From Spirochaetaceae bacterium (GTDB taxonomy: Bacteria; Spirochaetota; Spirochaetia; WRBN01), in the NCBI GenBank assembly GCA_009784515.1, contig WRBN01000004.1, positions 1 through 40,754 of the forward strand: 40,754 nucleotides of DNA. Reading direction: 5' to 3'. Every line of letters begins with the position of its first letter. The stretch's first letter is position 1. Below the pieces are notes generated by a model. It did not search any database, was not told the origin of the DNA, and worked only from the letters and a program-made list of their open reading frames with translations. The position numbers and the translations under genes were made by a program. Below, piece by piece: positions 28,279 through 32,214 of this stretch.

Positions 28279-28303
28279 GGACGGTTCTTAATTTTTATTT
28301 ATT
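28263..28303. terminator. 17-bp perfect inverted repeat between convergent genes
   Basis: AATAAATAAAAATTAAG (28263-28279) and its exact complement (28287-28303) flank a 7-nt loop, GACGGTT. It overlaps the stop codons of both galU (+) and the cysteine desulfurase gene (-). The stem ends in T-rich sequence in both directions, so it can act as a bidirectional terminator. Confidence 0.7.
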
Positions 28304-29432
28304 TAATTCTTAACTTTTCTAATACCTCTTTTAGTACCGCCAGCATAACTTTTACTTCCTCTTTGCCGGTAGCTGGGCTGTACGAAAAACGCACGGCTTG
28401 TTTAGCCAGCTGTTCGCTTACTCCGGCGGTAGTTAAGGCACGCAAATCGGTTTTTTTGTTGCTGCTGCAAGCGCTGCCGGTGGAGATATAAAGGCCGTGC
28501 TCGCTCGCCATGCGTACCACTACTTCGCCGGGAAGCGGGCTAAAAGCGCAGCTAACAATATAAGGACAAAAATTTTCAGGTTTAATTAAACGCAAGTTAG
28601 GTAGGACGGTAGCCCCTAAATCTTGCAGCCCGTTTATGAGTAAATTTTCGTTATGGCGGCTTTCTTTTACATTATAGTATTTTTCTAAAGTTAAAACCAT
28701 ACCGGCGATGGCTAGTAAATTTTCGGTGCCGCTGCGATTGCCTAACTCTTGGCCGCCGCCGCCTAAAAAAGGTTCACGCCATTTTTTTTGATAAAGCAGG
28801 CCGCTGCCGCGCGGGCCACCGGCTTTATGAGCGGCCAGCACTAAACTATCGGTATCTAATTTGGTTATGTCAAAGTTAATTTTACCTAACGCTTGTGTAG
28901 CATCTACATGCAGGTGGATACGGCAGCCTTCGGCGGCTTCGTAATCCCTAATGGTGGCGGCCAGCTGGGTTATATTATTAATTAACCCGGTTTCGTTATT
29001 AAGCAGCATAATAGCTACCAGTTTAGTTTGTTTAGTCAATTTTTTTTGTAAAAGCTCGGGAGTAATTAAACCGCCGGCGGCAACTAATTCTTTAACGGTG
29101 TAACCAAAGTTTTTTAATAATTTAAAGTTTTCGTAGACGGCGGCATGCTCGCCGGCATTAAGCAGTATTTCACCTTTACTTAAATTATTAATAAAAGATA
29201 ACATTACGGCCCCATTCCCTTCGGTAGCGCCGCTGTTAAAGGTGATGGTGTGGCCGGCCACACCTAGCGCCATTGCTGCACGATTACGCAGCTCTTCAAT
29301 AAGAATTTTGGCTTGCCGCCCCAGCTGGTGGCTGCTGGAAGGATTAGCAAAGTGGCTTAAAGCTAACCGGCCGGCCTCTTTAAAGATAGCTTCATCGGGT
29401 TTAGCAGTGGCAGCGTAATCAAAATAATGCAT
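28299..29432 (-). CDS. NifS/IscS-like cysteine desulfurase
   Basis: A PLP enzyme that takes sulfur from cysteine for Fe-S clusters and thio-modifications; relatives also deliver selenium. At 377 residues it shows His96 (GEHAAVY), Asp177 and Gln180 (HVDATQALG), the PLP Lys203 (AHKAGGPRGSG) and the catalytic Cys322 in STGSACSS. It is the last gene of the minus-strand unit rlmN - RSH - nifS-like, 16 bp after the RSH gene. Its ribosome binding site is weak (AGG at long spacing). The presence of a sulfur/selenium transfer enzyme behind a gene with an in-frame TGA is suggestive only. Confidence 0.92.
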   Translation of the reverse strand: MHYFDYAATAKPDEAIFKEAGRLALSHFANPSSSHQLGRQAKILIEELRNRAAMALGVAGHTITFNSGATEGNGAVMLSFINNLSKGEILLNAGEHAAVYENFKLLKNFGYTVKELVAAGGLITPELLQKKLTKQTKLVAIMLLNNETGLINNITQLAATIRDYEAAEGCRIHLHVDATQALGKINFDITKLDTDSLVLAAHKAGGPRGSGLLYQKKWREPFLGGGGQELGNRSGTENLLAIAGMVLTLEKYYNVKESRHNENLLINGLQDLGATVLPNLRLIKPENFCPYIVSCAFSPLPGEVVVRMASEHGLYISTGSACSSNKKTDLRALTTAGVSEQLAKQAVRFSYSPATGKEEVKVMLAVLKEVLEKLRIK

Positions 29433-29448
29433 AATTTTTTAACCTATG

Positions 29449-30591
29449 TTAAGTTGTTAAAAGCTCTTTTAAGCTTTGGGCTCCCGGTAGCTTCTCTAGG
29501 GCTAAAGCTCGCTCGCAATCGGCTAAAGCATTTAAATGGTCGTTTAATTGGTAATAAGCACGAGCACGGCCTAAATAACTATGAGCGCTAATCTTTAAAT
29601 TAATACTATGGTTAAAATTATCAACGGCTTTTTGATAGTTTTGCTTTAATAGCAAACAAATGGCTAAATAGTAAAAATTTTCGGCGCCGGCTTCAATGTT
29701 TACAGCTGCTTGATAATCGGCACAGGCTTCCTCTATTTTATTACAGCTAAGATAAGCTGCTGCTCGATGACTTAACACTAAACCGCTTGTTTTAGCCGAA
29801 ATATTTTTATCGTTAAGTAACTTACTGTAAAAATTAATGGCCGCTTGATAGTGGCCCGCGTTATGAGCTTTTAGCCCCAGCAGTAAATAATTACCGGCAG
29901 ATAAATTATTTGGTAAAACTTCAAAATTTACCGTGAACAGCTCTTCGATATGAGCATCAAGGCGGCTTTGGCGCAAATTACTTTGGTTTTTTACCTCTTT
30001 TTGCTCGTTGCGTGTCTCCTGAAAAATAATATCGGCCAAAGTTAAGCTGGCATTAATAGCAGCCATTTTACGGCGCAAGTTTTGGTCTTGCGGCGCATAG
30101 CTATCGCTGTAAACAAGTTGGTGCTCTACCTCGGCCCAAGCATCTTGCAGGATAGTACGTATTTGTATTTCTATGCATAAATCGGTAAAATCAATTATTT
30201 GATATTCTTCCGGTAATTTAATAAGTAAATGAGTACTGTCATAACCAAATTCTTTAAAAGTTAAATTCATAGCTTTTCGCTCTACTTCAAGGGTTTGATA
30301 ACGTTTTTCGATAAATTCTTCCAGCAGTAAAGCTTCTCCCGAAAAGGGAACAATAAGACGCACCGCTAATAAATCGCTGCTAACCGGCATAATAGCTTTA
30401 TTATTATAATTTCCTTTTTGACACAATTTACTATAAAGACTATTTAGTTCTTTAACGCGTCCTTTATAGGTAATGGGGCTGGCAAAAAGTGATAACTGCC
30501 CTTTTAAATGCTCGATAAAGGCCTGCAAAGTTATCTCTAACTCTAAATAATATTTGCTGTAAAGGTCTTCTAGTTGTTCAAAACTAAGCAT
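29449..30591 (-). CDS. RelA/SpoT-domain protein with TPR repeats
   Basis: A probable (p)ppGpp synthetase-type protein of 380 residues. Residues of about 25-165 carry the RelA_SpoT synthetase motifs: GRVKELNSLYSK (44-55), Asp73 and Arg78 (DLLAVR), YDSTH (117-121), and EIQIRT with Glu141, Gln143 and Arg145, then His157. There is no hydrolase domain. Residues of about 215-375 contain roughly four TPR units (for example HRAAAYLSCNKIEEACADYQ), which suggests regulation by a partner protein. GGAG at 6-nt spacing fixes ATG 30591, inside the 3' end of rlmN (8-nt overlap). Activity cannot be inferred for certain; the usual YRSIH Arg is Asp here. Confidence 0.88.
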   Translation of the reverse strand: MLSFEQLEDLYSKYYLELEITLQAFIEHLKGQLSLFASPITYKGRVKELNSLYSKLCQKGNYNNKAIMPVSSDLLAVRLIVPFSGEALLLEEFIEKRYQTLEVERKAMNLTFKEFGYDSTHLLIKLPEEYQIIDFTDLCIEIQIRTILQDAWAEVEHQLVYSDSYAPQDQNLRRKMAAINASLTLADIIFQETRNEQKEVKNQSNLRQSRLDAHIEELFTVNFEVLPNNLSAGNYLLLGLKAHNAGHYQAAINFYSKLLNDKNISAKTSGLVLSHRAAAYLSCNKIEEACADYQAAVNIEAGAENFYYLAICLLLKQNYQKAVDNFNHSINLKISAHSYLGRARAYYQLNDHLNALADCERALALEKLPGAQSLKELLTT

Positions 30592-31684
30592 ACATAGCTC
30601 CTAACTGGCCGCAAGCAGCGCCAATGTCGGCCCCGCGTTCGTCACGCCAGCGGCAAACTTGTCCATCGGTAGTTAAATTTTTAACAAAATCAATTTGTTC
30701 ATCTCGGCTTGCCGGCCGATAGGGCGAGTTAGCTAAAGGGTTATAATTAATTAAGTTAACTACGCTGGGTAAATCGCTAAGGTAAGCGGCCAGCTCGCGG
30801 GCATTGTCAGTACTAGCGGTAAGACCGGCGATTAAAATGTATTCTATAAATAAATTATGCGATTTACGTTTTAAAGGCAATTCTTGTAACGCCCCTTTAA
30901 GCGCCTGCAAATTCCACTTATGATTAACCGGCATTAATTTACTACGAATATCATTATTGCTGGCAGTTAAACTAACGGCAAAACGAATAGCCCGGTAAGC
31001 TGTAGGGCTTACTACATCTTTTGGGGGAGTTTTGGCGCGCTCTATATCCATTTTAATTAAATTAGCAAATTTATTAATGTTATCAACACTGCCCACACTG
31101 CTGATGGTAATGTTGCTGGCGGCTATGTTTGGCCCATAAGGGTGAGTAAATATATCTATAGCTTTAATCACATTATCAAAGTTATCAAGCGGCTCGCCCA
31201 TACCCATAAACACAATATTTTTAATATCTTTTTTTAAAATAAATTTAGCAACCATCAGTTGTGTTACAATTTGAGCAGTAGTTAAATTAGCTTTAAAGCC
31301 TAACTGGCCGGTAGCGCAAAAGGTTCAGCCCCATTTACAGCCGCTTTGGCTGGATAGACACAACGTATAGTAACCGTGCATAGCGATAATCACACTTTCG
31401 CTAAATACATTATCTTCAAATAATAAGCTAAACTTAATATGTGTTTTATCACCAAAAATTTTATCGGGCTTGGGCAAGGCAAAAGGCAAATCGCCCTCCA
31501 GCTGCCGGGCAAAACTTTGGTTGGCCTCAAAGCCGGGATAAGCGCTCACTTTAGAGTGCGCTAAGCTATAAAGTCCTTTAAAAAAGGCTTTACTATGGTA
31601 AGCCCCTTTTTGGTAACGTTTTTCAAACAGGCTTAGCAGCTCTTGGTAGCTAAAATTTAAATTATCTATCAGCATAGCAGGCAT
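30584..31684 (-). CDS. rlmN: 23S rRNA (adenine-C2)-methyltransferase RlmN with in-frame TGA at a cluster cysteine
   Basis: A radical-SAM enzyme that methylates C2 of A2503 in 23S rRNA and A37 in some tRNAs. One 366-codon frame, the normal family length, is broken only by TGA at codon 120 (31325-31327). The cluster motif reads C116-KWG-[TGA]-TF-C123, so the TGA replaces the second [4Fe-4S] cysteine. Cys109 and Cys358 (AACGQL), the two methyl-transfer cysteines, are intact, as are GMGEPLDN, SVGSVD and the C-terminal RGADIGAACG. Upstream, TTGTCA - 17 bp - CATACT ends 7 nt before the ATG, with no ribosome binding site. The TGA may encode selenocysteine or be a mutation. If it stops translation, no functional enzyme is made. 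Confidence 0.85.
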
Positions 31685-31761: not shown

Positions 31762-32175
31762 TTATAGTACCATCAGTAAAGTGCCGACGGTAATGAGTAA
31801 AGCCCCCAGCACCACTTTTAAGCTAACGGTTTCGCCAAAAATAACTAAAGCCAGCACAATGGTGATAACGACGCTTAGTTTATCGATAGGCACAACACGG
31901 CTTACCGGGCCAAGCTGCAAAGCCCTAAAATAAAAAAGCCATGACAGCCCGGTAGCTAGCCCCGATAGGCCCAAAAATAACCACGAACGGCTGGATATAT
32001 CGTTAATGCCCTTAACGCTGCCGGTAATAAAGACCATACCCCATGCCATCACGAGTACGACGGCGGTACGAATAGCGGTAGCTAAATTACTATTGACACC
32101 TTCAAGGCCGATTTTAGCCAAGATAGAGGTTAAAGCTGCAAAAAGAGCAGCCAGCAGAGCGAAAGGTAACCACAT
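31762..32175 (-). CDS. EamA-family small transporter
   Basis: A 137-residue inner-membrane protein with a single EamA unit (about five hydrophobic helices; typical start MWLPFALLAALFAALTSILAKIGLEGVNS). Proteins of this size probably work as dimers and belong to the drug/metabolite exporter superfamily; the substrate is unknown. I start at ATG 32175. The longer frame beginning TTG at 32214 is not credible, because its first codons coincide with a -35 TTGACA and a -10 TATTAT. No ribosome binding site precedes ATG 32175, so the mRNA is likely leaderless or nearly so. Confidence 0.88.
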   Translation of the reverse strand: MWLPFALLAALFAALTSILAKIGLEGVNSNLATAIRTAVVLVMAWGMVFITGSVKGINDISSRSWLFLGLSGLATGLSWLFYFRALQLGPVSRVVPIDKLSVVITIVLALVIFGETVSLKVVLGALLITVGTLLMVL

Positions 32176-32184
32176 AATAAATAG

Positions 32185-32214
32185 ATAATACAATGTTAAG
32201 TTAAGCAGTGTCAA
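32185..32214 (-). promoter_or_regulatory. EamA gene promoter
   Basis: On the minus strand: perfect TTGACA (32209-32214), 18-bp spacer, TATTAT (32185-32190), then 9 nt to the ATG at 32175. The leader would be about 0-3 nt. Confidence 0.7.

Follow-up and report, generated by a model that had tools for sequence, protein, structure and literature searches.

An in-frame UGA at the second cluster-cysteine position of an RlmN-like radical-SAM paralogue in a selenocysteine-decoding spirochaete: selenocysteine or nonsense mutation

Introduction

Radical-SAM enzymes form a very large superfamily, and the three-cysteine motif that holds their cluster is treated as near-inviolable. Radical-SAM proteins have nevertheless been placed among the selenoproteins: the available sections of two prokaryotic selenoprotein lists name TIGR04167 and TrsS (PMC9312934, PMC13188914). 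These same sections contain no case of selenocysteine (Sec) inside a CxxxCxxC cluster motif, a word search of the available text of PMC13188914 did not return RlmN, and no Sec-containing RlmN is described in the titles and abstracts covered by our text search. In Enterococcus faecalis, oxidants inactivate RlmN by way of its Fe-S cluster (PMC10336011), and we infer from this that an altered cluster ligand in the gene described below is of biological interest.

Here we analyse a window of 40,754 nucleotides, by which we mean the whole stretch taken from contig WRBN01000004.1 of the Spirochaetaceae bacterium assembly GCA_009784515.1. A preliminary description had noticed a TGA at codon 120 of an otherwise complete rlmN gene and had proposed that it encodes Sec or, alternatively, reflects a single-point knockout or an error.

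Results

The gene and the residues that matter for its function are located as follows (homologue alignments underlie the assignment of the residues).

30584..31684, minus strand: rlmN-like gene (divergent RlmN paralogue) of 366 codons and a terminal stop, with a single in-frame TGA inside it
31325..31327, minus strand: codon 120, the in-frame TGA, in the place of the second [4Fe-4S] ligand cysteine
31337..31339, minus strand: codon of Cys116, first cluster ligand
31316..31318, minus strand: codon of Cys123, third cluster ligand
31358..31360, minus strand: codon of Cys109, equivalent of E. coli Cys118
30611..30613, minus strand: codon of Cys358, equivalent of E. coli Cys355, the methyl carrier

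Codon 120 is indeed the sole internal stop in the 366 codons of the frame 31684-30584, and its context reads C109-LSSQSG-C116-KWG-UGA-TF-C123. Alignments with 18 homologues from the same class, with 18 clade members and with E. coli RlmN (3RF9) all place the TGA at the middle cysteine of the radical-SAM CxxxCxxC motif, corresponding to E. coli Cys129, which bears out the arrangement C116-x3-TGA-x2-C123 given in the preliminary description. The comparison of RlmN orthologues for UGA or Cys that had been suggested there returned Cys at this position in every aligned homologue; an in-frame UGA opposite a homologue-conserved cysteine, a criterion by which selenoproteins are recognised, is therefore present in this gene. 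As encoded, the cluster motif is incomplete, and it is complete only if UGA is read as Sec or Cys. Both catalytic cysteines of RlmN (E. coli 118 and 355) are kept as C109 and C358, and the frame continues beyond the TGA with no further stop, as had been claimed.

The gene had been called rlmN, a name that holds at the level of the family. The window protein scores 239.2 bits against NCBIfam TIGR00048, below the curated cut-off of 290, and 155 bits against the Cfr model TIGR04432, whose cut-off is 550. The genome has two RlmN-family genes, and it is the canonical copy, on contig C48, that carries the cluster cysteines. The window copy belongs to a separate RlmN-like subclade found in about 23 of the 395 genomes of the class; members of this subclade (loci L087-L109) coexist with canonical RlmN in several of these genomes. 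AlphaFold2 gave a confident fold (pLDDT 89.6) for the read-through protein modelled with Cys for U at position 120, and a Foldseek comparison of this predicted fold with the PDB returned RlmN as the best match (TM 0.83), the best ten all belonging to RlmN or to a close radical SAM methyltransferase. Because of the separate subclade, the score below the cut-off, the RlmN fold and the canonical copy elsewhere, the window gene is, judged by sequence and predicted structure, an RlmN-like paralogue and not the housekeeping gene that the original name implied.

The second, Cys-containing RlmN implies that the divergent paralogue is dispensable, and a knockout then has to be weighed. According to this explanation, a change of one base (TGY to TGA) recently introduced a stop that disabled a dispensable RlmN paralogue, translation ends at codon 119, and the remainder has not yet decayed. 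We regard it as a serious possibility, at somewhat less than even chances; the intact, Cys-type RlmN elsewhere in the genome speaks for it.

The search for selA, selB, selC and selD proposed in the preliminary description, in which absence of selB or selC was to count against Sec, found all four genes, so missing Sec machinery is ruled out. The genome contains selA (478 bits), selB (275 bits, above cut-off), a tRNA-Sec whose anticodon is UCA (Rfam score 58 bits, with independent agreement by ARAGORN) and selD, in which an in-frame UGA likewise occupies the Sec position, here that of the GGU motif. This selD gene (L053:1478-2500, contig C3) has a hairpin with loop AGUU directly downstream of its UGA. 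UGA codons at Sec sites are also present in grdA and grdB of glycine reductase, as well as in a second, separate grdB-like gene (loci L085, contig C111, and L086, contig C39), making at least four other genes in the genome with Sec-UGA codons. Given selA, selB, selC, selD and these genes, the genome has what is needed to decode UGA as Sec. In the sister genus the UGA site is occupied by Cys, and selA and selD are missing.

UGA still serves as an ordinary stop. The two TGA stops cited from elsewhere in the window (33790 and 35967) both exist, and TGA terminates 36 of 660 genes (about 5%), which rules out its general reassignment as a sense codon. The same figure weighs against a reading of UGA 120 as another residue through a suppressor tRNA or near-cognate read-through, as does the fact that, among the tRNAs inspected, the one with a UCA anticodon was called as tRNA-Sec. 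Nothing direct speaks for such a reading, UGA being simply a rare stop here (5%), and we consider it highly improbable.

A short hairpin lies downstream of the UGA, and its extended form includes a lower stem.

31297..31309, minus strand: SECIS-like hairpin GGCC-AGUUA-GGCU, 4-bp stem, loop starting 19 nt after the UGA
31290..31315, minus strand: the same hairpin with a 3-bp lower stem (31315-31313 paired with 31292-31290)

The bacterial SECIS model of PMC13188914 requires a loop of 3-9 nt, a stem of 4 bp or more, a G within the first two positions of the loop, a spacing of 16-37 and an energy of -7.5 or lower. Measured against this model, the rlmN-like hairpin fits in loop size, stem (four pairs including one G-U), position of the G and spacing, and its energy is borderline (-7.4 kcal/mol vs -7.5). 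Hairpins equally good follow 9.8% of the 1,363 Cys codons of the genome, and 4.4% when a G[GU] loop is demanded as well; synonymous recoding gave a background of 6.9%. Because about 4-10% of ordinary Cys codons match, the hairpin alone is weak evidence, and under a knockout it could be a chance structure. The hairpin GGCC/GGCU with loop AGUUA that had been put forward as weak SECIS evidence thus exists with the right geometry, and it is marginal in energy and against this background. The loop AGUU is common to the rlmN-like and selD hairpins and is rare, following 0.1-0.3% of codons, a comparison made after the fact. The strict SECIS model accommodates two of the four established Sec genes, selD and grdB, whereas the grdB-like gene fits it loosely and grdA does not; because of these last two, the model is an imperfect guide in this genome. 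The change R132A was also considered as one that closes the lower stem of the hairpin, and this was ruled out, some Arg codons folding equally well or better.

Decay of the gene was rejected on three counts. Codon bias is not lower after the TGA (0.40 before, 0.48 after; genome median 0.42, long ORFs). The branch of the window copy (0.654) is like that of the sister genus (0.603), the canonical copies having 0.624 and 0.657, which suggests no clear acceleration relative to the sister lineage and counts against a knockout. Departures at nearly invariant columns number 7 of 57 in the window copy and 7 of 60 in the sister copy. Those of the window copy are, however, more radical than the sister's and include R132A and E138Q, both being losses of residues conserved in the other homologues compared; these two changes suggest weakened constraint and favour a knockout. 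Among the matches listed, neither the other 22 subclade members nor the canonical RlmN copies have a stop, which is less easily reconciled with it.

A pattern scan of 84,980 genomes revealed no true case of an RlmN with UGA at the cluster-Cys site. It gave three matches, all of them chance matches outside RlmN, so a UGA common to other RlmN genes is ruled out; IMG/VR yielded zero matches to the UGA-RlmN pattern. As a control, the Cys version of the pattern matched the RlmN loci fetched. UGA at codon 120 was therefore found in this one genome, and conservation in several genomes, a further criterion for a selenoprotein, is not seen; the uniqueness of the UGA speaks for a knockout.

In the rlmN-like gene 141 single substitutions can create a stop, of which six give TGA at a Cys and one does so at codon 120. 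A random nonsense mutation would thus have fallen exactly on a Sec-replaceable Cys (6/141) in a Sec-decoding genome, which argues against a knockout. The base rate of nonsense changes is an estimate, because 843 kb (46% of the genome) was sampled, as stretches. The approximately 660 longer genes of this sample revealed nothing comparable, again to the disadvantage of a knockout; the sole other TGA-disrupted gene noticed, at a non-Cys position, is a short Gp49/RelE-like gene, and it speaks for a knockout. This gene (L081:4643-4951, plus strand, contig C13) is a probable nonsense pseudogene that can serve as a base-rate control.

The TGA might also be a consensus or assembly error, the cell itself carrying a Cys codon. 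That the assembly is a 129-contig draft speaks for this explanation; set against it are the 40.7-kb length of the contig, the other long genes sampled, which are without comparable stops, and the low chance that an error lands on this exact codon (1/141 stop-making changes). We judge an error unlikely.

Two genes of the same strand follow the rlmN-like gene.

29449..30591, minus strand: gene with RelA/SpoT domain and TPR, downstream; there is an overlap between its start codon and the stop of rlmN (ATGCTTAG)
28299..29432, minus strand: gene for a NifS/IscS-like cysteine desulfurase, the next member of this same-strand cluster

No conserved neighbourhood of the RlmN paralogue was found within 1.5 kb in six relatives, and the RelA/SpoT-TPR plus NifS-like arrangement (28299-30591, minus strand) was not found beside the paralogue in these six. 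The gene at 31762-32214 (minus strand) encodes a 150-aa protein with a single EamA domain, half the usual size; it is perhaps a half-size transporter, perhaps a remnant.

Discussion

The rlmN-like gene of the window is intact, has UGA at a cluster-ligand position, and resides in a genome with the complete Sec machinery and other selenoprotein genes. Either explanation calls for a rare event, be it a new selenoprotein or a nonsense mutation that hits this exact codon. Sec is favoured by the hairpin, the context and the integrity of the gene: counted on this side are the machinery, the Sec genes, codon bias, branch length, the geometry of the hairpin, its AGUU loop, the 6/141 figure and the read-through fold. 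Redundancy, uniqueness and lost conserved residues favour a knockout: counted against Sec are the unique UGA, the sister genus with Cys, the -7.4 hairpin, the second RlmN, R132A/E138Q and the lack of a listed CxxxUxxC. Of the two explanations offered in the preliminary description, Sec thus gains from the Sec genes, the coding integrity and the hairpin geometry, and the knockout stays because relatives are without UGA, a redundant Cys-type RlmN is present and the SECIS evidence is weak. Of the two, Sec is slightly favoured over the knockout; the weights that we attach to Sec, knockout and sequence error are judgements, not computed posteriors.

That UGA 120 is read as Sec has, in our estimate, close to an even chance. 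In that event the SelB and tRNA-Sec of the cell would read UGA 120 as Sec, and the short hairpin 19 nt downstream would assist as a SECIS. Translation would then yield an RlmN-family radical-SAM enzyme of full length, with Cys116, Sec120 and Cys123 as the ligands of its [4Fe-4S] cluster, and the enzyme would still be active, the selenolate ligand probably altering the redox potential or the stability of the cluster. The wider proposal is that, in an RNA methyltransferase of the RlmN family, Sec provides one of the three protein ligands of the radical-SAM [4Fe-4S] cluster. Both the selenoprotein family and this use of Sec would be new, and we hold the proposal a shade more tentatively.

If Sec is verified, chemists will have a selenolate-ligated radical-SAM cluster to study, a natural Cys-to-Sec exchange, and it will follow that Sec can spread past classical redox-active cysteines. 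If instead the gene proves to be knocked out, a UGA that replaces a conserved Cys does not suffice to prove a selenoprotein, even where the genome decodes Sec.

Comparison with known systems

TIGR04167 and TrsS (NF045646) are comparable in that both are radical SAM proteins listed with Sec (PMC13188914 and PMC9312934). The motif listed there for TIGR04167 is GxxU, not CxxxUxxC, and the window protein matched neither the TIGR04167 nor the NF045646 model at E 0.01. Within its own genome, the gene shares with selD, whose UGA lies at its Sec position, an in-frame UGA and a downstream hairpin with loop AGUU; unlike it, selD belongs to an established selenoprotein family and has a stronger hairpin (-13.3 kcal/mol). 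Cfr (TIGR04432) has superfamily and motif in common with the window protein, whereas the match to its model is weaker (155 vs 550 bits) and the structural similarity lower (TM 0.71). With respect to E. coli RlmN (PDB 3RF9/5HR7; TIGR00048), the window protein is divergent, exists beside a canonical RlmN, and has UGA at the second ligand as well as R132A and E138Q; yet it is like that enzyme in its predicted fold (TM 0.83), in the CxxxCxxC spacing, in the equivalents of Cys118 and Cys355, and in the GMGEP motif.
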